Virus record (IMG/VR): IMGVR_UViG_3300042691_021411
Span: 1-34,556 of that record
Length of the DNA stretch: 34,556 nucleotides
Direction: 5' to 3' (one strand)
DNA from: a virus
Shown here: positions 197-27,304 of the stretch, one piece after another
Layout: every line of letters begins with the position of its first letter
Numbering within the stretch: position 1 is the stretch's first letter
Position numbers and translations under genes: made by a program
The notes under the pieces: generated by a model
What the model saw: the letters and a program-made list of their open reading frames with translations, nothing else
Told to the model about the DNA's origin: nothing
Databases searched by the model: none

Positions 197-739
197 ATGG
201 CAGATGGTATTACTTATGGTGTTAATTTTCCCTTTGGGGTTAGTCCGCAAGGATATTATGTTTCTCTTTCTCAAACAACTGACGAAGAAATAAGATCAAG
301 TTTATTACATTTGATACTAACTAGAAAAGGTACTAGGTTTTTTTTACCTGATTTTGGTACAAGAATATATGAGTTTATTTTTGATCCATTGGATGGAGAA
401 ACATTTGAAGGTATAAAATCAGAAATACAAGAGCAGGTCGAGAAGTATATACCTAATCTTATTATAAATGACATAACTGTTACACCTTATTTAGAATCGG
501 AAATAGAAAATGAAGATTCACAAGAAATAGATAATACTTTTAATGTATCCTATAATAGAGGTAGTATAACAACAATATTACCTTCTGATGGTTTTGGTCA
601 ACAACCAAGTTACGCAAATGAAGACATTTTTAGAGTACCTGGTGCAAACACACAAGAGTATACCGCTAAACTAAGAATTGATTACGTTAATAATAATAAT
701 GCTTTTGGCTCAAGGGAGTTTATAATAATTAATATATAA
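197..739 (+). CDS. gp25-like baseplate wedge / sheath-initiator protein
   Basis: A 180-residue protein whose first ~100 residues match the GPW/gp25 family (T4 gp25, P2 gpW, TssE). Telltale segments are 'LLHLILTRKGTRFFLPDFGT' (about residues 36-55), then IYEFIFDPLD, and an amphipathic helix ending near IPNLIINDI. In T4 this protein sits at the wedge core and starts sheath polymerisation. It is longer than T4 gp25 (132 aa). The extra C-terminal part (about 110-180) has a beta-rich look with an NNNN run and no recognisable family. The ATG is 30 nt after a TATTTATA element, and the next gene begins 1 nt after its stop. The following gene is gp6-like, so the pair keeps the order expected of a T4-type baseplate. 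Confidence 0.85.
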   Translation: MADGITYGVNFPFGVSPQGYYVSLSQTTDEEIRSSLLHLILTRKGTRFFLPDFGTRIYEFIFDPLDGETFEGIKSEIQEQVEKYIPNLIINDITVTPYLESEIENEDSQEIDNTFNVSYNRGSITTILPSDGFGQQPSYANEDIFRVPGANTQEYTAKLRIDYVNNNNAFGSREFIIINI

Positions 740-740
740 T

Positions 741-2579
741 ATGGCAACAAATAAGATAAATTATACTAGTAGAGACTTCGAAAGTTTAAGACAAGATCTA
801 ATTAATTATACCCAACAGTATTATCCGGAGGTAATACAAAACTTTAATGACGCATCTATATTTTCAGTTTTAATGGATTTAAATGCAGCAATAGGTGATA
901 ACTTACACTACCATATTGATAGGAGTATACAAGAAACTGTCTTACAGTATGCACAACAAAGGTCTTCTATTTATAATATTGCAAGAACATATGGGTTGAA
1001 AGTTCCCGGTTTCAGACCTTCAGTTGCATTGGCGGACATTTCAATTATTGTCCCTGCATTAGGTGATAGTGAAGATACTAGATATTTAGGACTGTTAAGG
1101 GCAGGATCACAATTTAATGGTGGAGGTGCAACTTTTGAAACTGTATATGATGTAGATTTTTCTACGCAATATAATAACGAGGGAGTTGTAAATAGAACAA
1201 AAATACCAAACTTTGATACTAATAATAACATTATAAATTACACAATTACTAAGAGAGAGGTTGTTGTTAATGGTGTAACTAAAGTTTTTAAAAGAGTCAT
1301 AAACACACAGGACGTTGTACCATTTTTTAATTTCTTTTTACCTGAAAAAAATGTATTAGGTGTTACCGCAATAATACAAAAAGACGGTACCGAATACCAA
1401 TCAACACCAAACTCCACAGAATTTATTACATCCCAAAATAAATGGTATGAGGTAGACGCATTGGCCGAAGATACTGTATTTATTGAAGACCCGACCAAAC
1501 CAATAGACAAGGCTGGTGTTAAAGTTGGGAAATATCTTAAAACAGATAATAGATTTATTACTGAATATACACCTGAAGGTTATATGAAAATCCAATTTGG
1601 TGGAGGGACAACAACACCAAACCAACAATTACAACAATTTGCAAGAAACGGAACACCATTGAATATACAAAAATATCAAAACAACATAGGTTTAGGATTA
1701 ACAGTCACACCAAACACAACGATTTTTGTACAATATAGAGTTGGTGGTGGTACGGTCGCTAACGTCGGCGTTGGGGTTATAAATCAAATAGGTACTGTAA
1801 ACTTTGCTGTTAATGGGCCTTCAGATAATGTAAACACTAACGTAGTTAAGTCATTAAAAGTTAATAATGTTACAGCAGCAGTTGGAGGAGCCAACCCACC
1901 AACAACTGAAGAAGTTAGGAACATGGTTTCATTTAATTTTGCAGCACAAAAAAGAGCGGTAACGGTAAATGATTATAAATCTTTAATTGATACAATGCCG
2001 GGTAAGTTTGGTGCACCAGCTAAAGTTGCTATAACTGAAAATAATAATAAAGTTACAGTTCAAATACTTTCATATGATGCTGACGGAAATTTAACACAAG
2101 TGGTTCCTGATAGTTTAAAATCAAATTTAGCTACGTACCTTTCTAAATACAGAATGGTTAATGATTATATATCTATTGATATTGCAAAAGTAGTTGATTT
2201 AGAATTTGAAATATCCATAGTAATTGAAAACAATACCTCACAAAGTGAAATAATTACTGATGTTATTGATCAAATATCAACCTATATGAAACCAGGTAAT
2301 AGAGATTTAGGTCAAAATGTTAACGTATCTGACATTAGAAAGTTAATTCAAAATACTGCAGGTGTTGTTACACTAGCAGATTTAAAAGTTTATAATAGAG
2401 TCGGTGGTTTATATTCATCATCAGAAACTTCACAAAGATATTCAGATAAAGAAACAAAAGAAATAGAATTAGTGGACGACACTATTTTTGCTGAACCTGA
2501 TCAAATATATCAGATAAGATTTGATAGTAGAGATATTAACATTAGGGTTAAACAACTTCAAAATACCGACTTTTCTTAA
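741..2579 (+). CDS. gp6-like (baseplate J family) wedge protein
   Basis: A 612-residue protein starting 1 nt after the gp25-like gene. The N-terminus (INYTSRDFESLRQDLINY, a few residues later FNDASIFSVLMDLNAAIGDN, then the helix with 'ETVLQYAQQRSS') is the hallmark of T4 gp6-like wedge proteins in T4-type phages. The central part (about 320-440, with the VGGGTVANVGVG segment and 'RAVTVNDYKSLI') fits the baseplate_J fold shared by P2 gpJ and TssF. The C-terminal part (about 480-570, 'MVNDYISIDIAKVVDLEFEI' and 'VNVSDIRKLIQNTAGV') is the usual terminal alpha/beta domain. Length is close to T4 gp6 (660 aa). It should form the inner wedge dimer ring around the hub with gp25 and a gp7-type partner. 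Confidence 0.85.
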   Translation: MATNKINYTSRDFESLRQDLINYTQQYYPEVIQNFNDASIFSVLMDLNAAIGDNLHYHIDRSIQETVLQYAQQRSSIYNIARTYGLKVPGFRPSVALADISIIVPALGDSEDTRYLGLLRAGSQFNGGGATFETVYDVDFSTQYNNEGVVNRTKIPNFDTNNNIINYTITKREVVVNGVTKVFKRVINTQDVVPFFNFFLPEKNVLGVTAIIQKDGTEYQSTPNSTEFITSQNKWYEVDALAEDTVFIEDPTKPIDKAGVKVGKYLKTDNRFITEYTPEGYMKIQFGGGTTTPNQQLQQFARNGTPLNIQKYQNNIGLGLTVTPNTTIFVQYRVGGGTVANVGVGVINQIGTVNFAVNGPSDNVNTNVVKSLKVNNVTAAVGGANPPTTEEVRNMVSFNFAAQKRAVTVNDYKSLIDTMPGKFGAPAKVAITENNNKVTVQILSYDADGNLTQVVPDSLKSNLATYLSKYRMVNDYISIDIAKVVDLEFEISIVIENNTSQSEIITDVIDQISTYMKPGNRDLGQNVNVSDIRKLIQNTAGVVTLADLKVYNRVGGLYSSSETSQRYSDKETKEIELVDDTIFAEPDQIYQIRFDSRDINIRVKQLQNTDFS

Positions 2580-2628: not shown

Positions 2629-2633
2629 TTAAC

Positions 2634-2641
2634 TATTTATT
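2634..2641 (+). promoter_or_regulatory. TATTTATT octamer (one-mismatch variant)
   Basis: One base different from the TATTTATA element found upstream of other genes. It ends 12 nt before the ATG of the 1645-aa gene. Weaker candidate because of the mismatch. Confidence 0.3.
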
Positions 2642-2653
2642 TTAAAAGAAATA

Positions 2654-5600
2654 ATGACTAAAACATATAGAATAAGAACAACACCTGGTGATGATAAAAA
2701 TATAAGAATCAATATTAACCAGGATTTCGATTTTTTAGAAATACTTTCTTTAAAACTTAGACAAGACGACGTTTATACAAGGTTTTGTGCCGACTACGGA
2801 GTTGTTGTTGGTAGAGTTATTACAAACGGAGGTTATGGTATACCTAATGCTAATGTATCGATATTTGTTCCATTATCTGCGGAAGACGAAACGGATCCTG
2901 TAATTTCAACATTATATCCATACAAACGTATTGAACAAAAAAATGAAGATGGTTATAGATATAATCTATTACCATATGTACAAGAATATCAAGGACATAC
3001 ACCGACAGGTACTTTTCCAGATAGAGAAGACGTTTTAACAAGAAAAGAAGTTCTTGAGGTTTATGAAAAATATTATAAGTACACTGTAAAAACAAACGAA
3101 AGTGGTGACTTTATGATTATAGGAGTACCATTAGGTATTCAGACAATCATGATGGACTTAGATTTATCAAACATTGGTTGTTTTTCATTAGGTCCTGCAG
3201 ATTTGATTAGATTAGGTAGAGGTGCTCCAGGTCAATTTAACGGCAATAGATTTAAATCGTCGACAGACTTAGATTCGTTACCACAAATAGTTAATCAAAA
3301 AAAAGATATTAATGTTTCATCTTTTTGGGGTGAACAAGAAATATGTGATATAGGTATCACAAGAGTTGATTTCGATTTAAGAGATTTAGGTATCGAAATC
3401 AAACCACAAGCAATATTCATGGGGTCCGTCGTATCTTCAACAGAAGAAGACTTTTTAAAGGCTAATTGTAAACCTAAAAAGAATACAGGTAACCTTTGTG
3501 ACATGACAACCTCATCAGGTAAAATTTTAGCATTAAGACAAACTATTAACTATGACACAACAGGAAGACCAATACTTGAAAGATTCTCACTACCTGAAGG
3601 TGGAAATGTGATTGATGATGACGGAACATGGTTAGTAGAAGTACCAATGAATTTAGATTATGTTGTTACTGATGAGTTCGGAAATCAAGTAATATCTAAT
3701 GACCCAAGTGTCGGTATACCAACAAAAGGTAAGTATAGATTTAGAATACAATACCAAAATGAAGACGGAATTAATAATGATATTTTAAGAGCCGATTATT
3801 TGGTACCAAACATCAGAGAATATGGTTGGACAAGTGCTGGTGTTTTTTCTTCAGTTAACCAAGTACAGCAATTAAAATCTTATGCGTTTAGTTTAGATTG
3901 GAATGATTATGCAGACCCACAAGCGGCAATAAATTGTGAGGATTCTTTTTATGAATTTACATATAATAAGGTATATACTATTGCAAATTTTATAGATAGA
4001 TGGAAATGGGGTAAAAATAGAAGTAGACATTTAGGTATTAAAGAAATAACAGATAGGGCATGTACAACCACAAATAATAGGTTTCCTGTAAATGATGGTG
4101 TGAAAAATTTTGATTTTATATTTTTCCTATTCAATTTAATGATAACCATATTTACACCTGTATTCATAGTATTAATACCTGTAGTACACATTTTAGCATT
4201 TTTACTACCGATATTAAAATTCTTTTTAATTGTTGTAGTTCCGGTATTATTTGGTTTTCTAACTTATGGTTACTTTCAGGATGCGATAACCGCTTTGGGT
4301 ACTATTGCCCCAGCACCTGGTTTTATTGCTTGGTCATTTGCAAAGGCGATATTGATGGGACTTTTAACTATAGGGTACACAATTTTAGTTATTGTTAAGT
4401 TTAAAGATATTGTTGGATTTAAATTTAAAGGTATTAATTTACCAATGATGTCTTATCCTGACTGTGAATCATGTCCATGTGATAGTCCAGATTTAGATAC
4501 ACCTGATATAAAAGGTAGTTTAATTTCTAACCAAGGAAGTAACTCACAATCAACAATTGGTTCATACACGGTTAATAATAGGTCTAACGGTTCATTTTTG
4601 GCTGACACTAACAGTGGGCCAACATGGGGAGCACTTTCAGGTCCAATAAATGGTGCACAACCTTCACAATTAAACCCTGATGATTATCAAGGTAATGAAG
4701 CAACAAGACAATCTAAATATCAAGCCGATTTAAATGGATATCGATATTCAATTGCTGGGTACCCAACGAGTCCAGAATTTGGAGCTCCTGTGACTTATAT
4801 TTTTTCTAATAATTCTAGTAATATATTTTTACCTGCTAGAGATGTAACATATTCACAATCATTAAATTTAGCCAATGTAAGGGCTAGATACTTTGACGGA
4901 ACTAACGTTATTAAAACAACAGTTAATAATGGAAACACACCCTCAATTCCATTTGAAGATAATATGTTGATATTACTTTGTGATCCTGGTACCATAAATC
5001 AATATACTACAGGTTCTTTATTAAGTTTTGTTGACCCTAATAATATTTCCGATAATAATTTGAACGGAGCAATAGAAAATCAATTTGGGAATAACTCAAT
5101 AACAGGAACAACCCAAACCGCAGTAACAGTTAATTCACAATATATAAATACTAATGGAAATACAGTTCCATATACTCTTTATTTAACTGCAAGTACAAAT
5201 GAAAGAGAGTATAAATATAAAGCTGGTAACGAATATTTTCAAGTTGTAACTGGTATGACCGCAGGAGATGTTAACGGTATGATTACTTCAAACACTAATG
5301 GATTGTTGTATAAATATTTTATTAATAAAGTTCAAAGAACCTACTACCAACCATCCACCGGAGGAAATCCTATTTTGTTGTCAATTAATAATTTAAAATC
5401 AACTGGAACAGATATATGGCCAAAATTTGAAATTTTATTTTTAGTAAGAGGTGTTGATCCTTACACTGAAAAACAAAATATTAAATATGATTTATCAAAA
5501 CTATTTGGTCATTCTTCTTTTGGTAGTGGACCAATAATTGAAGGTAGTTATTTTTTAAATGTACCAATACAACCAAACACAACAAATGGTGGTTCTTGGT

Positions 5601-7591
5601 ATCACGACTTTAAATCTCCTGAAGACCACACAAACAATTTAAATTCTAAAATATATTATAACCCATTTAACTTTAATGTTGATACTACAAGTTTTTCTTC
5701 AGTGACATCTCCTGTAATAAGATATTACTCATCTTTAGATAAATCTAAATCATTATTTGTACCTGCTGGTGGACAACCTTTAAGTTTTTATTTTGGTACT
5801 GCTGCGGTTTCTGAAAATGGTAACAATAGTCTTTATTTTGAAGGATCCACCTACCAAAACAATGTTGAAGGGGGTTCATTTATTGGGTGTTCTAATAATG
5901 CGGGATCAATAAATGGGCCGTTCAGTTCATATAATGGTAGAGTTTACGCACCAACATATTCGTCATCACTTTCAGTCACAATAACATCGACAAACCCAAA
6001 ATTAATTTTACGGTCAGATAGGTTACCAACATCAGATAAAATACAAACATACGGTAATAACTCATTATCCTTACATATGAATGATAGTTTTGCTGCATAT
6101 ATTTTAGACGATTCGTCCTCATCTTCAAATCCACCTGAAGGAAATACCGCAACAGACACGTCAAATAATTCTGCTGACTTTTCTGGCGACGCTCCTAGTT
6201 TTTCCGATGCAGTATTAGATTCTTTTAGTTGTGAATCTATGGTTCCTTTAAGATGTTACAATAGTACAACCGATAGTAACGGAGACCCAACAATAACAGT
6301 TTTAGATCCATGTGATAAAAATGAAGATCCGGTTAGAGTTAAAAATGGTTGCTACCAGTTAATTAAAAAACCATATGTTATAAATGTTGGAAAAGATATC
6401 CAAAACTTTTTGGAGTGGAAAACTAGGTTCAGATTTATGTTTGGCGCGTGTAGAGGTATTTTTTCACATGTGTTTCAAAATAATTGGGTCAATGGTACTC
6501 TTTATATGTTTTCATTTAAAAAACAAACAATATTTAGTATTACTGGACAACCAAAAAAATATAAGTTTTGCGGTACTTTAGATAACATCTATAGAGAAGG
6601 TCAAGGACCTGTATATTACACCGAAACAACAACTAATTCATTTTTTTATAGATCATCACCTTACGATGGTAACAACTTTGTTGGACAAGTACCACAGAAA
6701 TCAACATATAGTAACCCTAACACATATACTAATGTGAATGCTGAATTTGGGGGGTTAAACGACAGAAATTTATTTTTTCCAACAACAATTATGGATATGG
6801 GACCAAGAGACGAATTTTTAAAAGAAATATGTAATAATAGTTCATTTCAAGGTTATATTGTCGATACAATAAAATCAACATCATTTAATGAAACTGCCGA
6901 CATTTTACAATTAGCAATTGTTTCTAGATTAATGAATAGTAACTGGTTAGGGGCGTTATTTAATGCCGGTGACGCGTCAATTAATAAAATGTTTTCAAGA
7001 ACTGAAGATAGGTTAGACGGAGATATCACACAGTTATTTAGTATAAATTCAGAATACGGTGTACAACCATTTGGTGATGATAATTATGATGACCAAGACT
7101 TATATGTAAATGTTAACGGACCTGCAACTGTAGGTATTTTCTTTTCATCTGACACTGTAAATCGAAAGTTAATAAGTCCGGGAACTGTAACCTTTTCTAT
7201 TTCACCATCATTAAACTTTTATTACGGTTTCCCTAAATCTCAAGAAGTTCCTGTTTATAAATGGAAATGGGCAACACAAACATCAATATTCGGTTCTGAA
7301 CTAAATGATTGGTACACTGCAGCACCTTATTACTCACAAAAATATCAATCATTTAATTTTACAACACAAACACCACCAGGTGTTTCACCTTATTTTAACA
7401 CAACTAACACAGGTCAGTTAGGTTACATTTATAATTCAGATTCTAACGGAGATACACTTTCTACTTGGTCTTCGGCCTTCATGGATAAAAATGTTGTAGG
7501 AGCTCCTTACCATTTTTACTTTGGTTTAAGAAAAGGAAAAAGTGCAATAAACAGATATATCACAAGATACATATTAAATCAAGATGTCTAA
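2654..7591 (+). CDS. Giant baseplate-region protein with membrane-like segment
   Basis: A 1645-residue protein placed where T4 has wedge gene 7, but not recognisable as gp7 by sequence. Residues 50-72 (VVVGRVITNGGYGIPNANV) and 143-170 (TVKTNESGDFMIIGVPLGIQ) together match a carboxypeptidase-regulatory-like beta-sandwich, with about 70 residues inserted between the two halves. Residues about 485-588 are extremely hydrophobic, enough for roughly three membrane helices (FIFFLFNLMITIF..., ...ILKFFLIVVVPVLFGF, ...AILMGLLTIGYTILVIV). Just after comes a Cys cluster, DCESCPCD (about 602-609). The remaining ~1000 residues are Asn/Ser/Thr-rich, beta-type and virion-like. A possible C-terminal anchor is KSAINRYITRYI. 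It overlaps the next gene by 8 nt. A baseplate or tail structural role is inferred from position; the function of the hydrophobic part is unknown. Confidence 0.6.
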   Translation: MTKTYRIRTTPGDDKNIRININQDFDFLEILSLKLRQDDVYTRFCADYGVVVGRVITNGGYGIPNANVSIFVPLSAEDETDPVISTLYPYKRIEQKNEDGYRYNLLPYVQEYQGHTPTGTFPDREDVLTRKEVLEVYEKYYKYTVKTNESGDFMIIGVPLGIQTIMMDLDLSNIGCFSLGPADLIRLGRGAPGQFNGNRFKSSTDLDSLPQIVNQKKDINVSSFWGEQEICDIGITRVDFDLRDLGIEIKPQAIFMGSVVSSTEEDFLKANCKPKKNTGNLCDMTTSSGKILALRQTINYDTTGRPILERFSLPEGGNVIDDDGTWLVEVPMNLDYVVTDEFGNQVISNDPSVGIPTKGKYRFRIQYQNEDGINNDILRADYLVPNIREYGWTSAGVFSSVNQVQQLKSYAFSLDWNDYADPQAAINCEDSFYEFTYNKVYTIANFIDRWKWGKNRSRHLGIKEITDRACTTTNNRFPVNDGVKNFDFIFFLFNLMITIFTPVFIVLIPVVHILAFLLPILKFFLIVVVPVLFGFLTYGYFQDAITALGTIAPAPGFIAWSFAKAILMGLLTIGYTILVIVKFKDIVGFKFKGINLPMMSYPDCESCPCDSPDLDTPDIKGSLISNQGSNSQSTIGSYTVNNRSNGSFLADTNSGPTWGALSGPINGAQPSQLNPDDYQGNEATRQSKYQADLNGYRYSIAGYPTSPEFGAPVTYIFSNNSSNIFLPARDVTYSQSLNLANVRARYFDGTNVIKTTVNNGNTPSIPFEDNMLILLCDPGTINQYTTGSLLSFVDPNNISDNNLNGAIENQFGNNSITGTTQTAVTVNSQYINTNGNTVPYTLYLTASTNEREYKYKAGNEYFQVVTGMTAGDVNGMITSNTNGLLYKYFINKVQRTYYQPSTGGNPILLSINNLKSTGTDIWPKFEILFLVRGVDPYTEKQNIKYDLSKLFGHSSFGSGPIIEGSYFLNVPIQPNTTNGGSWYHDFKSPEDHTNNLNSKIYYNPFNFNVDTTSFSSVTSPVIRYYSSLDKSKSLFVPAGGQPLSFYFGTAAVSENGNNSLYFEGSTYQNNVEGGSFIGCSNNAGSINGPFSSYNGRVYAPTYSSSLSVTITSTNPKLILRSDRLPTSDKIQTYGNNSLSLHMNDSFAAYILDDSSSSSNPPEGNTATDTSNNSADFSGDAPSFSDAVLDSFSCESMVPLRCYNSTTDSNGDPTITVLDPCDKNEDPVRVKNGCYQLIKKPYVINVGKDIQNFLEWKTRFRFMFGACRGIFSHVFQNNWVNGTLYMFSFKKQTIFSITGQPKKYKFCGTLDNIYREGQGPVYYTETTTNSFFYRSSPYDGNNFVGQVPQKSTYSNPNTYTNVNAEFGGLNDRNLFFPTTIMDMGPRDEFLKEICNNSSFQGYIVDTIKSTSFNETADILQLAIVSRLMNSNWLGALFNAGDASINKMFSRTEDRLDGDITQLFSINSEYGVQPFGDDNYDDQDLYVNVNGPATVGIFFSSDTVNRKLISPGTVTFSISPSLNFYYGFPKSQEVPVYKWKWATQTSIFGSELNDWYTAAPYYSQKYQSFNFTTQTPPGVSPYFNTTNTGQLGYIYNSDSNGDTLSTWSSAFMDKNVVGAPYHFYFGLRKGKSAINRYITRYILNQDV

Positions 7592-9311
7592 TCCGAGTGA
7601 AATAAGAATAGTATTAGGTTCTCTTAGATACGCGTCTAATAACAACCAAGGTGTATGGGTACAACCACCACTATTTGGTAGTAATAGAGAATATGTTGAA
7701 GGTGATAGAACTATACTTGTGGATCAACAAGTCATATTTGATAATGAAAGACAGGCTAGTGATAAATTTAGAATTGCTGGAAAAATTGTTAATGTAATAA
7801 ATAATGAAGTTTCGGGTAAAACATCATATTCACCTTATAAAAATAATTTATATTACACTAACCCGATTAATAATGCGATTTCATCATTATCTAACCCATC
7901 GTATGCTTGGGAGGGGTACCCACAATTTAATGAATTTACGATAAGTAGAAATGAAGGAATACCTGGTCACATACCATTTGTAAATAAAAGCGCCTCTTCA
8001 TATAATTGGTCATTTTATATTACTTATGCGTTTTCAAGTACTACCGCACAGACTATGTCATACACTAATGAACAGTTTAACGTCACAAATAGTAACTTTG
8101 TTTGTGGTGATGGTGTACCATATGTATTAACAACAGGCACCCTTAATGGTAAAAGTTTAATTTATTTTTATTGTGGTACAAAACACAATTTAAATGTTGG
8201 AGAATCAATAGAATTATCAGTACCAATTAATAATCAAACAGTATTCACGGTATATTCTTTAGGTGATGGAGCATATAATTCAGAAGAAAATGTATTTACA
8301 ATTTATGATTTAAAATTTAACCCAAACGATGTTCAAACAGGAACATACGGAACATTAAAACGAATTTCAAACATAATAAATTCGGGGGAGACTAAATCAA
8401 TTTATTATGTAAGACTTCATAAAATAATAAAAACACCAAATGAGTGTAATATATCAAGAGCTGGTTTTGAAAATAACCCATTTTTTGTCAAGAAAAAAGT
8501 TGAGTATGCAGAGATAACCCCAAACCAAACAGAAAGATTATCAGTAAAAGATGGTACACAAACTTACTCATTTACATTTGATACCGATGTTTCTATTGCC
8601 GGATTAGTCGACAATAATGGAAAACCTATTACTGAATTATTTGTTACTGCGGTACAAAGAGGTTATATGGGTTGGTTTAATAAACCTTTTTTTAATCAAA
8701 ACACACAATTAACAGGTTTAGAGGTTGGTTGGGGTTTTAATTTCTTAAAAAATAGTATTGATAACTGGTGGGATAAAAACTCAGCAGTAAATAAAGATAA
8801 TATACCTGTTGGTTCTTATAATACAAACGGACAAACTTTTTATTATAACGAACACTTAAATGTAGGTGATGTGGTGAAAGGGGATTTCTGTGAATTTAAT
8901 TATTTAGAGCAGAAAGAATATGTTTTATCTAAAATGTATCATAAATATTCATTTAATGATTTATATTTCTCAGATAACTCAACACCTAATCTACCTTCAG
9001 GATATCTTTATGAACCACACACACCAATACAAATAAGAACTTTTAGTGATTATTTAGAATTTGGGTCAAAAGAATATACAGACAATGTACCTGGTTATGC
9101 TTGGTTCAGTGAATTTGAAGATACGTGGTATTGGAGAGATTTATATACTTATGGTTTTATTGATAATGACGGAATTGGAGTTGATTACCCATTTTTAAAT
9201 GGAGCCCATTACCCATTTAAAGACATTTTATTTTTACAATACCCAATACAAAGAGATAATAATGTTCAGGCGAATCTAATAAACAGAATAACAAATGACG
9301 ATTGTGAATAA
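7584..9311 (+). CDS. Virion structural protein, baseplate block, unrecognised
   Basis: A 575-residue protein whose ATG lies 8 nt inside the end of the preceding giant gene, suggesting translational coupling. It starts MSNPSEIRIVLGSLRYASNN and is rich in Asn, Tyr and aromatic residues, with no signal peptide or membrane segment. A region around 340-380 ('FVTAVQRGYMGWFNKPFF') and one around 480-530 ('HTPIQIRTFSDYLEFGSKE') stand out but match no family I can name. Its position after the gp25-like, gp6-like and giant genes corresponds to T4 gp8, but this is order-based inference only. It overlaps the following gene by 17 nt. Confidence 0.5.
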   Translation: MSNPSEIRIVLGSLRYASNNNQGVWVQPPLFGSNREYVEGDRTILVDQQVIFDNERQASDKFRIAGKIVNVINNEVSGKTSYSPYKNNLYYTNPINNAISSLSNPSYAWEGYPQFNEFTISRNEGIPGHIPFVNKSASSYNWSFYITYAFSSTTAQTMSYTNEQFNVTNSNFVCGDGVPYVLTTGTLNGKSLIYFYCGTKHNLNVGESIELSVPINNQTVFTVYSLGDGAYNSEENVFTIYDLKFNPNDVQTGTYGTLKRISNIINSGETKSIYYVRLHKIIKTPNECNISRAGFENNPFFVKKKVEYAEITPNQTERLSVKDGTQTYSFTFDTDVSIAGLVDNNGKPITELFVTAVQRGYMGWFNKPFFNQNTQLTGLEVGWGFNFLKNSIDNWWDKNSAVNKDNIPVGSYNTNGQTFYYNEHLNVGDVVKGDFCEFNYLEQKEYVLSKMYHKYSFNDLYFSDNSTPNLPSGYLYEPHTPIQIRTFSDYLEFGSKEYTDNVPGYAWFSEFEDTWYWRDLYTYGFIDNDGIGVDYPFLNGAHYPFKDILFLQYPIQRDNNVQANLINRITNDDCE

Positions 9312-10134
9312 TAATTATTTTAGATATGCGGTTTCACCAAACGACAGGGCCTTTAATATCCCTGTTAATATTACTTTTGATAATTTAGGAAGGGAAGAAG
9401 GTATTGTTGAGTTTGAAAATGAAGTTTTAAAAGATTTAATAAATGGGATTAACGACTTTGAAACAACAAAGTTTGCAAATTCAACTTACCCATTACAACC
9501 TAATAGTACGGATATTAATTATATCTTTTCTTTTTTTGATCCGTCTAACACGATACTAAGTGCCCCATCTACTGCTTGGTCAGACAATTATAATAATACT
9601 GGGTTTTTTGATAATGAGATATATTATTTTGCAAATTCGTTTAAAAATAGTTTTTTCAAATTAGATTTGTACGACACAAAAACAAACGAAAATCAAAGAG
9701 CATTTATAAGTATAGTAATACCTACACAACAAGGTTTAAAAAAACAAGGAACCATCGGGTTTACTAATGTTCAAGTAAATAAACCATCGTTTGTTTTAGA
9801 TTATATTGGTGCTGATAAAGAAGGTTTTTTTATATATTGGTTAAAAGAAAGAGACTACATTGACATTTCTGAATTTTATATGACAGCAAAATTCTTTAAT
9901 GGTAAAACAGGTCAATTCATAAGATTTATGAATGAACCACAATCGACATTCAACGGAAACGATAAATTTAATTTCGACAAAAGCCAATACTTTTATTATA
10001 AAGTTATTTTAGACTACAGTAATTACGAGTATGGAATATATAAAGAACAACCACAATTGAATCAACCACCATCTCTTGTTAGAGTTGGTGACTCGGCTAA
10101 CCCCATAAAATGGTATGAATATGTTAACCCATAA
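9295..10134 (+). CDS. Virion structural protein, baseplate block, unrecognised
   Basis: A 279-residue protein that begins 17 nt before the stop of the upstream gene and ends in a TAATG overlap with the next, so translation is probably coupled at both ends. The sequence is beta-rich and aromatic, with acidic and Asn-rich stretches such as NNYFRYAVSPNDRAFNIPVN at the start and a Tyr-rich end (YFYYKVILDYSNYEYGIY). No domain, signal or membrane helix is recognised. It is counted as structural because it is embedded in the baseplate operon. Confidence 0.5.
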   Translation: MTIVNNNYFRYAVSPNDRAFNIPVNITFDNLGREEGIVEFENEVLKDLINGINDFETTKFANSTYPLQPNSTDINYIFSFFDPSNTILSAPSTAWSDNYNNTGFFDNEIYYFANSFKNSFFKLDLYDTKTNENQRAFISIVIPTQQGLKKQGTIGFTNVQVNKPSFVLDYIGADKEGFFIYWLKERDYIDISEFYMTAKFFNGKTGQFIRFMNEPQSTFNGNDKFNFDKSQYFYYKVILDYSNYEYGIYKEQPQLNQPPSLVRVGDSANPIKWYEYVNP

Positions 10135-11222
10135 TGGATGAAATAAGATATAGTATTGTAATATCACCTGAAAATTTAAAAAGTGATATTTTTACAGAAA
10201 CATATAATAGTGACCACGGTACTAACATATTTGGTATTTTTTCAGGTATGTCTTATGTTTTAAGTGGGGGTACAAATGGTCAATCACTACTTACGGGTTT
10301 AACTATACCTATATTTTTTACTCAAACAATAAATGATTTAGGTGTTTATACGGAGTTTGATGGTGATTTATTACAAAAAGATACATTAACTAACTTTTTA
10401 TATAGTGCCGACACAAATTCACCATATGACGTTTATGTTTACAATACGTCAGGAGATTTAACGGTTTCGTTCCTTTCTTTTTCTAAATTTTTTGTTAATT
10501 GGGGTGATGGTTCCCCAACACAACAAATATCAAATCAACCACTATTACATAGCTATATAAATTCACCTGATAGTTATACAATTTCATTTTCAGGTATTAA
10601 TACTTGGGGTACTACTGTAATACAAAAAGAAATATTTTTACCATATAATAGTGCGACTATTTCTAATTTACAAGGTACCGTAACATTTACACCACAAACA
10701 GGGAATTGGTCAGGAATACCTACAACCTATAACTTTAACTTTACAGGTGATTCACAAAATAATTACCCAGCTCAGGTTTCAAGTACATATACAAATGTTC
10801 CTTTTGTGGTTAGTGGTTATACAACATCTAAACTTACTGATTTAAAAAGATACGGACCGACTAAGTATTCAATTGGTTATCAGTTTATAAAAAATAATCA
10901 AGTATTTGGACAAGTCGATGACATAAATCCTGATTTTACAGAATACACAATTAATGGAATTAAGTATTATGATTTTCCTGATGGAAAAACTTTATTTTTT
11001 GTATTTAGTTCAGGGTTTACTCAGGATAATATTACATTATCGGCTATTACAAAAAATGAGAGACTTTTAGATTTTGTTATGGATCCTGAAGTACAATCAA
11101 ATGTTTATATAGAAAGAGGTAAATATTCGGCATTTGAACCACTACAAAGATTAGGAGAAGTTGATAATATTGGTGACTTAACAAGGTATGGTTACAACTA
11201 TTATAAAATTAATACTGCTTAA
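10134..11222 (+). CDS. Virion protein with PKD-like domain
   Basis: A 362-residue protein starting in a TAATG overlap with the previous gene. About residues 105-168 resemble a PKD/Ig-like beta-sandwich: the diagnostic FFVNWGDGSPT (119-129, WGDGS at 123-127) is followed by LLHSYINSPDSYTISFSG and a TVIQKEIFL strand. PKD domains are protein-protein or glycan-contact modules in secreted bacterial proteins and some phage tail proteins. The N-terminal ~100 residues (a Gly/Ser-rich LSGGTNGQSLLTGLTIP segment) and the C-terminal third (ending near YGYNYYKINTA) match nothing I know. Position suggests a baseplate-peripheral or fibre-attachment protein. Confidence 0.5.
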   Translation: MDEIRYSIVISPENLKSDIFTETYNSDHGTNIFGIFSGMSYVLSGGTNGQSLLTGLTIPIFFTQTINDLGVYTEFDGDLLQKDTLTNFLYSADTNSPYDVYVYNTSGDLTVSFLSFSKFFVNWGDGSPTQQISNQPLLHSYINSPDSYTISFSGINTWGTTVIQKEIFLPYNSATISNLQGTVTFTPQTGNWSGIPTTYNFNFTGDSQNNYPAQVSSTYTNVPFVVSGYTTSKLTDLKRYGPTKYSIGYQFIKNNQVFGQVDDINPDFTEYTINGIKYYDFPDGKTLFFVFSSGFTQDNITLSAITKNERLLDFVMDPEVQSNVYIERGKYSAFEPLQRLGEVDNIGDLTRYGYNYYKINTA

Positions 11223-11237
11223 AAAAAGCACATAAAC

Positions 11238-11245
11238 TATTTATA
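11238..11245 (+). promoter_or_regulatory. TATTTATA octamer, candidate late promoter element
   Basis: An exact copy of the recurring intergenic octamer, in the 32-nt gap before the 302-aa gene. It ends 9 nt before the ATG. If it is a -10-type element, the transcript leader would be very short. Confidence 0.45.
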
Positions 11246-15921: not shown

Positions 15922-15954
15922 TATTTATATAATAAAGTAAATTTTTAAATGGCG
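15892..15954 (+). repeat. Duplicated gene leader, copy 1
   Basis: This leader and the one at 22654-22715 share a 17-nt block (15892-15908) and a 22-nt identical block (15919-15940) holding the TATTTATA element, then T-rich sequence and ATGGCG. It precedes the 808-aa SprB-repeat gene. The match is long enough to indicate duplication or recombination rather than chance A/T similarity. Confidence 0.75.
15922..15929 (+). promoter_or_regulatory. TATTTATA octamer, candidate late promoter element
   Basis: An exact copy of the recurring octamer inside duplicated leader copy 1, ending 19 nt before the ATG of the SprB-repeat gene. Conservation of the flanking bases with the leader at 22684 makes this one of the better-supported sites. 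Confidence 0.5.
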
Positions 15955-18375
15955 TATTGTATATCAGGTTTAACTAATGGTGTTTATTTATACACAGATT
16001 GTTGTGGAATATTACAAAGAGGGGCATCAGTTGGTGAAAGTGTTTGTATAGATAGTGCGTTTTCTGGCAGTGCTTCAGGTATTGTCATATATTCGGCAAT
16101 TACTTGTACTGAAAATTGTAATGGAGGACCATTAGGTTATAGTTTTACAGTTACAGGAACTTGTTACGCCGGTTCAGGAACTACAGTCATTGAAGTTTAT
16201 AATGGACAACCTGTTTACACCATTAATAATGTTATTCCCGGAACTTTAGGTTCACAAACCGGGTTTGGTCCATTCACTTTTAGTGGTTTAAGTGCCGGTA
16301 CATACACATATAGAATTAATGATTCGTCAGGAGGGGTTAATGAAGACATATACGTTAACGTAATTGTAAGTGATTGTTTTAGGACTTTTGCTTATGGTGC
16401 GTCAGGAACCACTTGTGGTTTAGATAATGGTTCTTTTTATGTTAATTGTGATAGTTCGGCGTCACCTTATACTTTTCTTTTGTATGATACTGTAAATTTA
16501 CTTAGGGTAGAAACATCAGCTACATTACCATATCAGTTCACTAATTTAAGTGCTGGAACTTACTATGTAACTGTAGTAAATTATGGTAATGTTTCTGCAT
16601 ACACTGGTACTGTAGTAATAATACCTAGCGTCGGTGTTGATTTTGGTTTTTGGAAAGTAGATACATCGACTTGTGTTGTTGATAAAGGAAAGCTCGCGGT
16701 CACAGGAGTAACCGGTACAGGTCCTTTCACATATTTATGGTCTAATGGTGAAACAACATCATTAATTACAGGATTAACACAAGGATCGTACACTTGTACT
16801 GTTACTGATAGTTTAGGTTGTCAAACAACAAAAAGTGAATTAATCGGTGTGGTAGAACCATTGGGTGTTGGGTTAGTCACATCTGTTGAACCATCATGTT
16901 TTGCTTCAGACGGTTCATTAACATATACTATAACAGGAGGTTCTAGACCTTTATATTTTTCAGCAAACACAGGACAAGTTGGATACACATTCGACGATAC
17001 AATTGTAATAAATAATTTGAGTAGTGGATCTTATATCACTACTGTTAGAGATGCCAATTTTTGTGAAATAGTTTTAAATGGGTTTGTTACACCACAAAAT
17101 GGGTTTACGGTCGTAGACACTATAATTACAAACTCTAATTGCAATCAACAAAATGGTAGTGTTAATGTGCAATTGGCAGGACAAAACGGATTTTATACTT
17201 ACGTTTTATCAGGTCAATCAAGCGGCACTATATTAACAAGTACGAGTCAAAATCAATCACACACATTTAATAATTTACCAAACGATAATTATATTTTAGC
17301 GATTTCAGGATCAGGTACAAATTGTTTTTATAATTCAACACTAACAATAAATTCAGAGCAAAAGTTTACTATTAGTGCAACAACTACAAATGCAACTTGT
17401 AATCAATATAATGGACAAATACAAGTTAATGTTTCTTCTGGTTATACGGCACCTTTAGATTACTTTTTAAGTGACGGTCAATCAAATATTAATAGCCCAT
17501 TTTCTGCGAATACTTTTTATAATCTTAATGCGGGTACCTACACTTTGAATGTTGTTGACGATTCTGGTTGCTCAGTTTCTGAAACAATAACAATCGCAAC
17601 AACTCAAGGAGTTGTATTTTCGGTAACAGAGACAAATTGTACTAATGGTAGTAATGGAGAGGCTTTAGTTACAATATATCAAGGATCTCCACCATATAGT
17701 TATTTTTGGTCAAATAACATACCTGACGATCAATCGGGGTTTCAAATACAAGGATTGAGTGCCGGTACATACACTGTTCAAGTAATTGACAACAATGGGT
17801 GCTCATCTACACAAACATTTCAAATTGTATGTAATGGGTTACTTTATACTGGTTATGAAATTTTTACAATCTGTAAAGATCAATTTACAACAACAACAGG
17901 GACTCAAAGAGGGTTTGATGAAATGTTAAACGAGGGTTATATGGACATTACATCAGGGTATACCGGATGTAGTTTTAATAGTGCTGAATTTATTGCTCAA
18001 ATAAATATAAATGGAACGGCATTTACCCAAAGTTTTTATACTGCAACCACTCTAAACGATGTGCCACAAGATAGTTTATGGCAATCAGCGATAGAAAGTA
18101 TGTTGTCGGGTATTACAGAAGTTGGTGAATATACTATTGATATACTAAATAACACATTAGAAATAAAGTCTAACTGTAGTGGGGACTTTGATCCTTTAGC
18201 TGACGCACCATTTAGTTTATCGTTACAAATAATTTATGATGTTACTTGTACTGAAAACGTTACACCGACTCCAACACCAACCGTTACGCCAACACCAACT
18301 CCAACCGTTACACCAACTCCGACACCAGTAATTTGCAATATGTCTGGATACACATTTGAAATAAACCAACCATAA
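15949..18375 (+). CDS. Tail adhesin with about seven SprB-type repeats
   Basis: An 808-residue protein made largely of tandem SprB-type repeats at roughly 85-138, 158-225, 250-293, 330-378, 408-465, 495-546 and 577-624. The clearest are GPFTYLWSNGETTSLITGL followed by GSYTCTVTDSLGC, and SPPYSYFWSN followed by GLSAGTYTVQVIDNNGCSS. SprB repeats are known from the flavobacterial gliding adhesin SprB and similar cell-surface proteins, so this is a phage surface protein using host-adhesin architecture. The N-terminus (GVYLYTDCCG) is a Cys-containing cap with no signal peptide. Residues about 660-765 match a region of the upstream 1235-aa protein. A Pro-Thr tract (772-794) and short tail CNMSGYTFEINQP follow. 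Likely a tail fibre or receptor-binding protein. Confidence 0.7.
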   Translation: MAYCISGLTNGVYLYTDCCGILQRGASVGESVCIDSAFSGSASGIVIYSAITCTENCNGGPLGYSFTVTGTCYAGSGTTVIEVYNGQPVYTINNVIPGTLGSQTGFGPFTFSGLSAGTYTYRINDSSGGVNEDIYVNVIVSDCFRTFAYGASGTTCGLDNGSFYVNCDSSASPYTFLLYDTVNLLRVETSATLPYQFTNLSAGTYYVTVVNYGNVSAYTGTVVIIPSVGVDFGFWKVDTSTCVVDKGKLAVTGVTGTGPFTYLWSNGETTSLITGLTQGSYTCTVTDSLGCQTTKSELIGVVEPLGVGLVTSVEPSCFASDGSLTYTITGGSRPLYFSANTGQVGYTFDDTIVINNLSSGSYITTVRDANFCEIVLNGFVTPQNGFTVVDTIITNSNCNQQNGSVNVQLAGQNGFYTYVLSGQSSGTILTSTSQNQSHTFNNLPNDNYILAISGSGTNCFYNSTLTINSEQKFTISATTTNATCNQYNGQIQVNVSSGYTAPLDYFLSDGQSNINSPFSANTFYNLNAGTYTLNVVDDSGCSVSETITIATTQGVVFSVTETNCTNGSNGEALVTIYQGSPPYSYFWSNNIPDDQSGFQIQGLSAGTYTVQVIDNNGCSSTQTFQIVCNGLLYTGYEIFTICKDQFTTTTGTQRGFDEMLNEGYMDITSGYTGCSFNSAEFIAQININGTAFTQSFYTATTLNDVPQDSLWQSAIESMLSGITEVGEYTIDILNNTLEIKSNCSGDFDPLADAPFSLSLQIIYDVTCTENVTPTPTPTVTPTPTPTVTPTPTPVICNMSGYTFEINQP
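18262..18330 (+). repeat. Pro-Thr coding repeat tract 2
   Basis: Encodes three Thr-Pro blocks separated by Thr-Val (TPTPTPTV pattern) near the C-terminus of the SprB-repeat protein. It follows the same domain that precedes tract 1 at 15121, so domain plus tract behave as one movable unit. Confidence 0.8.
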
Positions 18376-18383
18376 TTTATAAT

Positions 18384-20624
18384 ATGCCATTTTCAGCAGT
18401 AACATGTTTATCATATACAGGAACAACACCGTTAGGTGGAATAATTAATCTTTATAGTGATGTTGATAGTTTTGCAAGTGCATTTACAACTAATATAAAT
18501 TTATCAGCAATTACAGGAAACGAATGTCCTTATTATATTAATAATGTCCCTGATGGTACAACACAAATAAGGATTTTCGATATAGGTACTGGTTGTTATT
18601 GCGATTTACCTGTACAAGACAACAATTTATGTGTAACATGTGATTTAGATTTTAATACTTATAGTGCTACTAGTGTTGGTAGATTGGTTGCCGGTAATTT
18701 AACGGGATCTTGTCAGGCGAATATAACCGATTATAGAATATTTTGGTATGAAACAGGAGACACTACTAATCCTGTTTATATATCAGGATTTGGTTCTGAA
18801 TTTACACCATATTCTTTTACACATCCACTTACAGGTACTAGTGCTATATTTGCACAAGCAGGAACTTACATACCCGTTATAGATAAAGTTAAGATAAGTG
18901 GGTTGACTTTTTCACAAACTGGAGGTACCGGTACTATACCCGCCGAGTTAGAGTGTTTTACTTCAACAACCGTCACTGTTGACGCATTTACTTGTGATAA
19001 TGGAACAAGTGATGACCCAAATTATGAACATAGAGTTAGTTTTTCAGGTGCAGCAGCGGGGGTGGTACCACAAACATTGGAGAGTACTTTTTTATTAACT
19101 GGTACTACAAATTATTTCGCTTGGAAATTTAGAGGATTTTCAGTACCTGATAGATTAAGACTTACATATTACGGTTCAGTTTATTCTGAACCTTTATTAT
19201 TTGAAGATATTGTTGTTGGTACTGATTTGTCAGGTAATGATTTTAATTTGAATAAGGTACCCAAAAGTGCCGACACTTTATTTGATACATTTTTTATAAA
19301 AAAAGTAAGTTGTTTAACTGGTATAACACAAAATATAAATGACACAATAAGGTTAGAAGTAATACCAAACTCAGCTAATACCCAAACAAATTGGGATTTT
19401 TATTTTACGTGTTTGGATACATTTGATCAAGATAGTTGTATATTGAATAATGACCCATATAAAATATCAGCTTCTACTATAGTATCATCTACTGGTTTAT
19501 GTAACACCAATCAAATACAATTTTATGTTAGCGGGTGCCCAACTAATGTTGATGATTTTACAAAATATATAATTAATGATGAACTCAATAATAATATAAT
19601 GGTTGGTTACAACACTAACAGTTCATATCAAAACCCCCCAAGTTTAATTTTTAAACAAAGCCCTTTTTTATTTATAAATTCAATAGATGCTACATTTAAT
19701 TATCCAAAACTTGATTCATTAGTTTGCGCAACACCATCTACCAACGACATTACATATAAAAAATATGTAAGTGGTAGCACACAAGGGATAATAGATATGG
19801 AGTTTAGTAGTATAAATGACTTTAATACATATTATGATTCATATATAAATATTAGTACTAATTCAAGTTTTTTATGTCCCCCATTCACAACATTAGATCC
19901 ATGGAGCGGAACCCCATTTAATTCAGCAGACGTTAGGTATTACAGATTTTATGCATTGGCAATCCCCTCAAATACCGGTTCCACTAATTGTGGTGATGGT
20001 ACCACACTATTAGAATTTTTTATACATCCTTCCACTGTGGTTACGACTGGTACAACGGGACCAAATTATACTTTAAGGTTTACAATGCCAACAGTTGTAA
20101 ACAATTTAACATATGACCCACTATGTAACGTATCAGGTAATGTACAGACATTTATTGTTAACACAATAAATGACAGTTCAACCGGTACAACAAATAATTT
20201 TACTGGAACAACTTCAACAGGTAGTAAATATACTGATCCATTTTATGCTTTTAGAGTTATGTGTAGTGGTGTAACAACCTTTAGTGCTACAACTTTAGGG
20301 GGTAATGTTGCTTACCCAAAATATTTAAATGAAACTATAGTTTACACTGGAACAACACCAACAATAGTACCATCATTAAGTGCAAAAACTTTTAATTTTA
20401 ATTATACAAAATTTACAGAAGTTACCGTTCCTAATAATATGAATTATTATAATAAGTTTACATATTATTATTCTGTTAAATTAAATAATACCTCAGATTT
20501 TAGAGATTTTGAAATATATGCCCAATCATACACCGGCATCACGTTAGGTTCTGAAATATTAATTTATAGTTATACAGGATCTACAGGATTATCAACGCAA
20601 CATGACCCATCTTATTTTATATGA
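18384..20624 (+). CDS. Probable tail fibre / adhesin protein, unrecognised
   Basis: A 746-residue protein that starts 8 nt after the SprB-repeat gene. The N-terminal ~90 residues resemble a degenerate SprB-type module with Cys pairs (ECPYYINNVPDGTTQIRIFD, then TGCYCDLPV). The middle (about 190-330) is beta-rich and contains FAWKFRGFSVPDRLRLTYYG and a strand ending TNWDFYFTC, suggesting a jelly-roll or Ig-like domain that I cannot name. The rest is Ser/Thr/Asn-rich with scattered Cys. No signal peptide or membrane helix. It ends in an ATGA overlap with a one-module SprB-like gene. Fibre or adhesin role is inferred from composition and neighbours. Confidence 0.5.
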   Translation: MPFSAVTCLSYTGTTPLGGIINLYSDVDSFASAFTTNINLSAITGNECPYYINNVPDGTTQIRIFDIGTGCYCDLPVQDNNLCVTCDLDFNTYSATSVGRLVAGNLTGSCQANITDYRIFWYETGDTTNPVYISGFGSEFTPYSFTHPLTGTSAIFAQAGTYIPVIDKVKISGLTFSQTGGTGTIPAELECFTSTTVTVDAFTCDNGTSDDPNYEHRVSFSGAAAGVVPQTLESTFLLTGTTNYFAWKFRGFSVPDRLRLTYYGSVYSEPLLFEDIVVGTDLSGNDFNLNKVPKSADTLFDTFFIKKVSCLTGITQNINDTIRLEVIPNSANTQTNWDFYFTCLDTFDQDSCILNNDPYKISASTIVSSTGLCNTNQIQFYVSGCPTNVDDFTKYIINDELNNNIMVGYNTNSSYQNPPSLIFKQSPFLFINSIDATFNYPKLDSLVCATPSTNDITYKKYVSGSTQGIIDMEFSSINDFNTYYDSYINISTNSSFLCPPFTTLDPWSGTPFNSADVRYYRFYALAIPSNTGSTNCGDGTTLLEFFIHPSTVVTTGTTGPNYTLRFTMPTVVNNLTYDPLCNVSGNVQTFIVNTINDSSTGTTNNFTGTTSTGSKYTDPFYAFRVMCSGVTTFSATTLGGNVAYPKYLNETIVYTGTTPTIVPSLSAKTFNFNYTKFTEVTVPNNMNYYNKFTYYYSVKLNNTSDFRDFEIYAQSYTGITLGSEILIYSYTGSTGLSTQHDPSYFI

Positions 20625-21408: not shown

Positions 21409-22644
21409 ATGAAAATTTTTGTTCAAATAGCGTCTTACAGAGACCCTGAACTTGTACCAACAATTAAATCATGTATAGATAACGCAAAAAACCCAAACAA
21501 TTTAGTTTTTGGTATTTGTAGACAATTTAATAAAGATGATAAATTTGATGACCTTAGTGAATATGAAAATGATAAACGTTTTAGAATTATAAACATATCT
21601 TTTGAAAATGCTAAAGGAGTTTGTTGGGCAAGAAATAAAGTTCAACAATTATATAATGGTGAAGAGTATACTTTACAGATTGATTCCCATATGAGATTTG
21701 AAAAAAATTGGGATGAAGAGATGATAAATATGATTAAACAACTTCAAAAAAAAGGTTATAAAAAACCATTATTGACCGGTTATGTTTCATCATACAACCC
21801 TCAAAACGATCCAAACGGTAGAGTAAGGGTTCCTTGGCGTATGGTTTTTGATAAGTTTATACCTGAAGGTGCTGTATTCTTTTTACCCGAAATAATACCA
21901 AATTGGGAAACATTGAGTGAACCTGTACCTGCTAGATTTTACTCGGCACATTTCTGTTTTACGTTAGGTCAATTTTCAAAAGAAGTTCAACATAACCCTG
22001 ATTTTTATTTTCACGGGGAAGAGATATCGATAGCCGTAAGGGCATTTACTCACGGGTACGATTTATTCCACCCACATAAAGTTTTAATATGGCACGAGTA
22101 TACAAGAAATGGTAGAACAAAACACTGGGATGATCAAAAAGAATGGTGGAAATCAAATAATAGGGCACATGACTTGAATAGAAAATTATTCGGTATGGAT
22201 GGTAATGATTTAATGGATCAGGGGGTATATGGGTTTGGTAAAGAAAGATCATTAAGAGATTATGAAAAATATGCTGGTTTATTATTTTCTAAAAGGTTAG
22301 TACATCCTGAAACATTGCAAAAAAAATACCCACCAAATAGTGAATATAAAAATGAATTAGATTGGGAAAAAAGTTTTTTAAAAACTTTTGAATATGAAAT
22401 TAAATTAAAAAAAGAAGATATTACTGAAAATGAATATGATTTTTGGGCAGTAACATTTCATGATGAAACAGATAGGGAAATATTTAGAAAAGATGCTGAT
22501 AATAACGAAATCAATATCATATTAAAAAATCAAAATTTAAATATCAAAAGAAATTTTCCCGTAGATATAACCCCTAAATATTGGACCGTCTGGTTCCACT
22601 CAAAAAATAAAGGTTGGTTGAATAGAGTGACAGGTCAAATATAA
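21409..22644 (+). CDS. GT60-like (GlcNAc-type) polypeptide glycosyltransferase
   Basis: A 411-residue enzyme of the glycosyltransferase (GlcNAc) family (PF11397, CAZy GT60). Seen motifs are ASYRDPELVPTI (about 8-19), CWARN (72-76), LQIDSHMRF with the D92-S-H94 metal/nucleotide site typical of this family in place of DxD, HGEEISIAVRAFTHGYD (202-218), and WHEY (228-231). Known members transfer GlcNAc to protein Thr (trypanosome mucin type) or hydroxyproline (Dictyostelium Skp1). The last ~85 residues (from ITENEYDFWAVTFHDET) form an extra beta-rich domain of unknown role. The gene lies among tail-adhesin genes whose products carry long Thr-Pro tracts, which are plausible acceptors. Donor and acceptor are inferred; modification of host surface or a different sugar donor cannot be excluded. 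Confidence 0.78.
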   Translation: MKIFVQIASYRDPELVPTIKSCIDNAKNPNNLVFGICRQFNKDDKFDDLSEYENDKRFRIINISFENAKGVCWARNKVQQLYNGEEYTLQIDSHMRFEKNWDEEMINMIKQLQKKGYKKPLLTGYVSSYNPQNDPNGRVRVPWRMVFDKFIPEGAVFFLPEIIPNWETLSEPVPARFYSAHFCFTLGQFSKEVQHNPDFYFHGEEISIAVRAFTHGYDLFHPHKVLIWHEYTRNGRTKHWDDQKEWWKSNNRAHDLNRKLFGMDGNDLMDQGVYGFGKERSLRDYEKYAGLLFSKRLVHPETLQKKYPPNSEYKNELDWEKSFLKTFEYEIKLKKEDITENEYDFWAVTFHDETDREIFRKDADNNEINIILKNQNLNIKRNFPVDITPKYWTVWFHSKNKGWLNRVTGQI

Positions 22645-22653
22645 ATAAAACAT

Positions 22654-22715
22654 AAAAATAATTTAATAAAATAGATGTTCGATTATTTATATAATAAAGT
22701 AATTTTTAGATGGCG
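22654..22715 (+). repeat. Duplicated gene leader, copy 2
   Basis: Counterpart of the leader at 15892-15954: a 17-nt identical block at 22654-22670, then the 22-nt identical block at 22681-22702, ending in ATGGCG. The middle 10 nt differ. It precedes the 536-aa adhesin gene. Confidence 0.75.
22684..22691 (+). promoter_or_regulatory. TATTTATA octamer, candidate late promoter element
   Basis: An exact copy within duplicated leader copy 2, ending 18 nt before the ATG of the 536-aa adhesin gene. It sits at nearly the same spacing as in copy 1. Confidence 0.5.
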
Positions 22716-27082: not shown

Positions 27083-27304
27083 ATGATTTGGAGATTAATT
27101 TATAACAACATAAACGTAGTACATTTGTTTGAAACTAATGATATTACTGTTACACCCCATCAAATTTTTGAAGGAAATACGCAAGAAGAGTGTTTTGATA
27201 AAATTGATGAATTAAAAATAACATATTACTACCCTTTAAATGAAAATGAAATATTATTATTCAGTGGAGGAACAAGAACGATAATAAATAAAGATGATAT
27301 TTGA
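27083..27304 (+). CDS. Small hypothetical protein (73 aa)
   Basis: A 73-residue protein. The start is taken at the ATG at 27083, 2 nt after the upstream stop, in preference to an in-frame TTG at 27062 that would overlap the previous gene by 19 nt. Sequence starts MIWRLIYNNINVVHLFETND and includes EGNTQEECFDKIDELKITY. No domain recognised, no signal peptide. Its stop overlaps the next gene's ATG (TGATG), so the two are probably translated together. It could be an accessory or assembly factor for the adjacent adhesin, but nothing in the sequence proves it. Confidence 0.5.
   Translation: MIWRLIYNNINVVHLFETNDITVTPHQIFEGNTQEECFDKIDELKITYYYPLNENEILLFSGGTRTIINKDDI

Follow-up and report, generated by a model that had tools for sequence, protein, structure and literature searches.

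How contractile phages bring their DNA across the inner membrane of the host is essentially unexplained, even for T4 (PMC11054660). The locus analysed here raises the question of whether a baseplate protein could carry a membrane-entering element of its own: in the window (i.e., the whole 34,556-nucleotide stretch of viral DNA under study), two baseplate wedge genes are followed by a gene encoding a 1645-residue protein, here called BIG, with an extremely hydrophobic segment. If this segment does enter the host membrane from the baseplate, the DNA-entry question would become testable with a defined 100-residue module, and a new route by which a phage tail grips or opens its host would be at hand. 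The three genes are as follows:

197..739, + strand: gp25-like baseplate wedge / sheath initiator gene (Pfam GPW_gp25 1.8e-10; phrog_261 4.9e-18)
741..2579, + strand: gp6 / gpJ-like baseplate wedge gene (phrog_219 1.6e-21; Baseplate_J 2.2e-6)
2654..7591, + strand: BIG, wedge-slot protein of 1645 aa (ORF call; family unnamed)

The initial annotation had located BIG in the baseplate region, and this was verified both by HMM comparison of gp25 and gp6 and by synteny: 65/65 loci checked have gp6 directly upstream of BIG, as a rule with 60-124 nt between the two genes, and the order gp25-gp6-BIG is strict across very diverged phages. An HMM of the gp25-like protein of the window's clade matched gp25-like proteins in phage records at 1e-17 to 1e-21, and the clade gp6 HMM recovered T4 gp6 at 3e-8 and gp6 from two cultured phages and one uncultured phage at 1e-64 to 1e-70, so that the wedge identity of BIG's neighbours is firm. 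BIG shares with the gp7/BW3 wedge type a gene position beside gp25 and gp6 within a cluster for a contractile tail.

BIG itself hit no named family in Pfam or PHROG scans, yet its unnamed family, which has no entry in either collection, comprises hundreds of uncultured relatives on viral contigs sampled in several habitats. A scan of IMG/VR with BIG returned about 197 relatives and scans with diverged members hundreds more, partly overlapping, and the sample series point to freshwater, marine and gut or rumen origins; a scan based on P0004 found no relatives. Some contigs bearing the family exceed 200-400 kb, and seven large relatives encode a T4 gp23-type capsid (5 of the 7), a sheath (6, of which two score above the Pfam cut-off) and a terminase (3), which identifies them as T4-like jumbo myophages. 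Homology of BIG to proteins of cultured phages was looked for and not detected. When seven family proteins were compared by tblastn with 50,697 phage records, there was no match, and sequence searches of the PDB gave nothing meaningful. The large post-gp6 proteins of the phages with the nearest cultured gp6 (Flavobacterium immuto and Microcystis Mel-JY01) have neither a hydrophobic segment nor a match to the family, and the same is true of the large protein after gp6 in a 484-kb uncultured phage. A match to phrog_5972 (9 members, best E 0.008) was not accepted as homology. The best match in BFVD, A0A8S5LA66 from Myoviridae sp. ctPuP5 (E 9e-45; 40% identical across 456 columns of the N-terminal model), is a relative and an uncharacterized, unstudied metagenomic protein.

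Within BIG, residues about 488-581 are extremely hydrophobic, and the sequence YPDCESCPC then follows. The features of the protein are, from its N-terminus:

2792..3397, + strand: first beta-sandwich, carboxypeptidase-regulatory-like, residues 47-248 (duck carboxypeptidase D 1qmu, Z 6.5, rmsd 2.0, 80 residues; weak PF13620 in 47/66 members)
3410..4003, + strand: second beta-sandwich, transthyretin-like, residues 253-450 (many transthyretin chains, Z 5.7-6.3, about 95 residues, rmsd about 3)
4061..4063, + strand: Cys470, just N-terminal to the helical hairpin (invariant in 85/85 of the window's clade)
4115..4300, + strand: hydrophobic helix 1, residues 488-549, with the polar stripe N494/T498/T501/H512/K522 (hydropathy, AlphaFold, helical moment)
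4187..4189, + strand: His512, in the middle of the hydrophobic helix (invariant in 85/85 of the clade)
4316..4396, + strand: hydrophobic helix 2, the return helix, residues 555-581 (hydropathy, AlphaFold)
4460..4483, + strand: DCESCPCD with the CxxCxC motif (Cys604/607/609 invariant in 85/85 of the clade)
4535..6130, + strand: middle region, residues about 628-1159 (confident AlphaFold prediction, pLDDT mostly 85-98)

The 19-residue Kyte-Doolittle maximum (KD19) of the segment is 2.88 and its Wimley-White octanol value -17.3 kcal/mol, whereas KD19 reaches at most 1.5 elsewhere in BIG and at most 1.51 in all other ORFs of the window. Shuffling BIG (2000 shuffles) gave a mean maximum KD19 of 1.75 and a highest value of 2.95; a lone peak of 2.88 can thus be reached by shuffling, and the case is carried by the length of the segment and by its conservation, on the strength of which a chance artefact was rejected. 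The coordinates first given for the segment were correct to within one base (residues 485-588 correspond to 4106-4417, and DCESCPCD, residues 603-610, to 4460-4483). Of the "roughly three membrane helices" proposed there, three separate hydropathy peaks are present, but AlphaFold shows two helices; likewise the cysteine cluster does follow the segment, not "at once" but after a gap of about 14-20 residues.

Conservation in related phages had been proposed as a check, and it is extensive. Among 85 full-length members of the window's clade (below 85% identity), all retain the hydrophobic stretch (KD19 2.13-3.25) together with His512, Cys470 and CxxCxC. Across a superfamily set of 255 unique complete proteins having the BIG N-terminal domain, a hydrophobic peak stands at the equivalent place in 253, nine of them weaker (KD19 1.68-1.89). 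The exceptions are the two shortest homologues, L260 (747 aa) and L262 (728 aa), in which the N-terminal part is present and the hairpin is not, and the segment is therefore dispensable in some relatives. By comparison, of the remaining 1197 ORFs with 350 aa or more in these loci, only 3 have a KD19 of at least 2.0, and one of the three (1240 aa) matches in length the split BIG copy of L067. In that locus (5716-10613) BIG is divided into 347-aa and 1240-aa frames, which we attribute to a frameshift or an assembly error.

When the N-terminal-domain tree is rooted at its midpoint, L262 and the partial L263 branch deepest, L260 takes a nested position, and proteins of the CxxCxC form make up one clade within the hairpin-bearing group. 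From this topology the hairpin appears to predate the CxxCxC motif, and in L260 it may have been lost. The number of hydrophobic peaks varies within the clade (1, 2, 3 and 4 peaks in 7, 26, 41 and 11 of 85 members, respectively), helix 2 is reduced or absent among short-form relatives, and the minimal forms (L123, L105) leave space for about one membrane crossing; given this variable helix number, no single topology fits all members. In the subclade of L123, L189, L164 and their relatives, the N-terminal domain extends about 80-90 residues beyond its end point in the window protein.

AlphaFold models were built for two overlapping parts of BIG, residues 1-700 (mean pLDDT 76) and 446-1645 (mean 82), and both agree on a 62-residue helix (488-549) and a 27-residue return helix (555-581; pLDDT mostly 77-92), the hairpin being placed between beta-rich domains. 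The linkers that flank it are poorly defined in the first model (pLDDT 44-58), and in the second, short strands (481-484 and 594-597) flank it. Both models thus present the helices as a separate module, and the burial in a soluble bundle that the initial annotation had named as the outcome adverse to its proposal was not seen within BIG's own chain, as predicted for a single chain. The same annotation had suggested a carboxypeptidase-regulatory-like N-terminal domain; the fold is supported by the structure match and by weak PF13620 similarity (13.8 bits for the window protein, below the curated cut-off of 32.3; best E among relatives 1.5e-4), although there are actually two tandem sandwiches. 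With middling Z scores of 6-6.5 and rmsd of 2-3 over 80-97 residues, the N-terminal part would be a prealbumin-like sandwich by fold resemblance only. Structure searches with the C-terminal model returned unrelated helices only. We also considered BIG as a tape measure protein and rejected this, the predicted chain consisting mostly of beta-rich globular domains rather than of a long helical in-tube chain.

The hairpin could face lipid, or it could be packed within the baseplate. The latter is a serious rival, if an unlikely one: the helices would be BIG's part of the baseplate core bundle (a helix-turn-helix with two gp6) or of another buried interface, and never lipid-exposed. Gp7-type wedge proteins do contribute a helix-turn-helix to the (gp6)2-gp7 core bundle in XM1 (PMC10457771) and Milano (PMC10811340), and the BIG gene occupies the gp7 slot. 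Like BIG, T4 gp7 (BW3) comes directly after gp6, is large and has a TM-like stretch (KD19 2.07), and in its record the C-terminus is annotated with a "predicted integral membrane domain". The premise that baseplate wedge proteins normally lack membrane helices was therefore too strong, and since gp7 is a virion wedge protein in spite of this entry, calling membrane segments in wedge proteins from sequence can be misleading.

The T4 gp7 stretch is, however, unlike that of BIG in being about 20 residues long, near the C-terminus and highly conserved. The BIG segment has 2-5 times that length and a much higher hydrophobicity (KD40 about 2.5, against a maximum of 0.93 in T4 gp7), and it likewise exceeds P2 gpI and Mu gp48, both with KD19 < 1. 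Similarity to gp7 was not found by profile-profile comparison (hhalign probability 0.1 against 8 diverse gp7) or by HMM (E 0.23), although divergence could mask such similarity, and BIG is for this reason not filed as a gp7. A buried bundle also sits poorly with a Cys470-Cys604 spacing that ranges from 71 to 160 residues, and with the absence of the segment from two homologues. In T4 gp7 (L441 7061-10159), the stretch conserved across 8 diverse gp7 reads HPVGFGFIAITLLTMFINVG.

The pattern of substitution within the segment bears on the same choice. The helical moment of clade-mean hydropathy over residues 488-525 peaks at 100 degrees (0.85 vs. a permuted mean of 0.32, p = 0.001), with N494, T498, T501, H512 and K/R522 forming one polar stripe along an otherwise hydrophobic helix; judged from sequence, such a conserved polar face on a hydrophobic helix is the reverse of a soluble amphipathic helix. 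Identity at hydrophobic columns is 0.51 in the segment vs. 0.72 elsewhere (p = 3e-4 against the C-terminal and 2e-10 against the N-terminal part), as expected for lipid-facing residues, where any greasy residue would be acceptable. In the T4 gp7 control (eight diverse phages), by contrast, identity in the hydrophobic stretch is high (0.81 vs. 0.74 in the rest of gp7). BIG has long, charge-poor hydrophobic helices conserved as such, which is the sequence signature of alpha-helical membrane proteins, and the polar stripe, the low identity and the contrast with gp7 together favour, if indirectly, a membrane-facing module over a buried bundle.

It is thus tempting to propose that BIG is a baseplate-region structural protein in the T4 gp7 slot, whose shielded hairpin enters the host membrane when the baseplate opens, a reading to which we give about an even chance. 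The two N-terminal beta-sandwiches and the large C-terminal part would fix BIG in the baseplate, and the linkers (470-487 and 582-609), with their four invariant cysteines, would form the neck of each hairpin. In free virions they would pack against each other or be shielded, with perhaps one hairpin in each wedge; opening of the baseplate on the cell would release them into the host membrane and so anchor the baseplate, with the polar stripe and the invariant histidine turned toward other helices or a lumen, away from lipid. The outcome could be DNA passage or an anchor alone, and the hairpin is probably used for anchoring or opening the host envelope. The clade has many invariant cysteines, of which four (470, 604, 607 and 609) bracket the hairpin and represent a possible metal site or possible disulfides; phage Milano offers an example of a disulfide-linked baseplate. 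Some YP.C..C match is present in 15/94 other members, and related YPGCxC motifs occur among these.

A hairpin of this kind might instead tether the growing baseplate to the inner membrane of the producing cell during assembly, with no role in DNA entry, which we regard as doubtful. Membrane segments do dock contractile systems: in the thylakoid-anchored contractile injection system (CIS) of Anabaena, Cis13 provides a TM helix and the baseplate protein Cis12 an extension (PMC8894136), and in the Streptomyces CIS, the membrane adaptor CisA, whose gene adjoins the baseplate genes, is required for firing (PMC12237407). The C-terminal flank of the hairpin is also mildly positive (mean charge +1.7 vs. 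-0.1 for the N-terminal flank), as with proteins inserted from the cytoplasm, but this is a modest difference, seen in just 64/85 members, and after release a phage would need to pull its baseplate out of the membrane. As both assembly anchoring and entry at infection would place the hairpin in a membrane, membrane entry at some stage is, taken together, rather likely. That BIG is a non-virion membrane protein of the infected cell, its gene merely located in the baseplate operon, is very improbable: homology to known virion proteins was not found and beta-sandwich folds in multi-domain chains are frequent in surface proteins, but the gp25-gp6-BIG order is strict, and BIG has no signal-peptide-like N-terminal stretch, its first strong hydrophobic segment coming only after 487 residues.

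For entry into the host membrane from the baseplate, the thylakoid CIS offers a precedent, and BIG would in its working be most like the membrane-docking parts of the thylakoid CIS and CisA, which share with it a link to the baseplate of a contractile system and, in Cis12 and Cis13, membrane-contacting elements. These are bacterial systems, however, in which the Cis13 trimer resembles a fibre and has one TM helix, Cis12 lacks a TM segment and has only a putative amphipathic helix, and CisA is a separate single-pass protein rather than a section of a giant baseplate protein.

Some tape measure proteins also have TM segments. In TP901-1, the TM segments of the tape measure have reportedly been proposed to make a membrane pore after tail attachment. 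The diffocin tape measure CD1366 has hydrophobic segments to which a membrane pore after tail attachment is also ascribed (PMC10996793). Such proteins are carried in the tube lumen, whereas the putative tape-measure candidates of the jumbo relative G001 (2431 aa and roughly 2150 aa) have no hydrophobic helix; along the coding strand of some 58 kb that span the tail genes and their flanks in G001, no ORF of 120 aa or more other than BIG has a KD19 above 1.7. More speculatively, and with a low likelihood in our estimate, the membrane-opening role may have shifted from tape measure to baseplate in a major uncultured group of jumbo T4-like phages. Several copies of the polar-striped hairpin would then enter the membrane jointly as the baseplate opens, encircling the tube with a ring that serves as anchor or pore. 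In G001, the sheath is 1069 aa long with the sheath domain at its C-terminal end, and the sheath/tape-measure region is separated from the wedge genes by genes for ribonucleotide reductase, a DnaB-like helicase, a UvsX-like protein and an exonuclease (82-112 kb, L435-L437).

An alignment of the relatives' upstream regions revealed a further conserved feature:

2631..2640, + strand: conserved AACTATTTAT element in the gp6-BIG gap (exact match)

The sequence AACTATTTATTTTTAAAAG is conserved immediately 5' of the BIG start among relatives, and an exact AACTATTTAT also occurs at 11235-11244, both copies standing shortly 5' of gene starts (2654 and 11255). With one mismatch allowed, the count of AACTATTTAT in the window is not above chance. 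The AACTATTTATTTTTAAAAG/AACTATTTAT element is possibly a promoter or translation signal.

Elsewhere in the window, a 536-aa ORF (22710-24320) without Pfam or PHROG match contains 5.2% cysteine, and the ORFs at 15949-18375, 18384-20624 and 27301-28905 are cysteine-rich too (2.4-3.3%). Two of these tail-region ORFs (15949-18375 and 27301-28905) contain SprB repeats, a domain type of gliding adhesins in Bacteroidota, which hints at a Bacteroidota host. Downstream of the wedge genes lies a GlcNAc-type glycosyltransferase gene (21409-22644; PF11397 5e-70, phrog_24687 3e-159).
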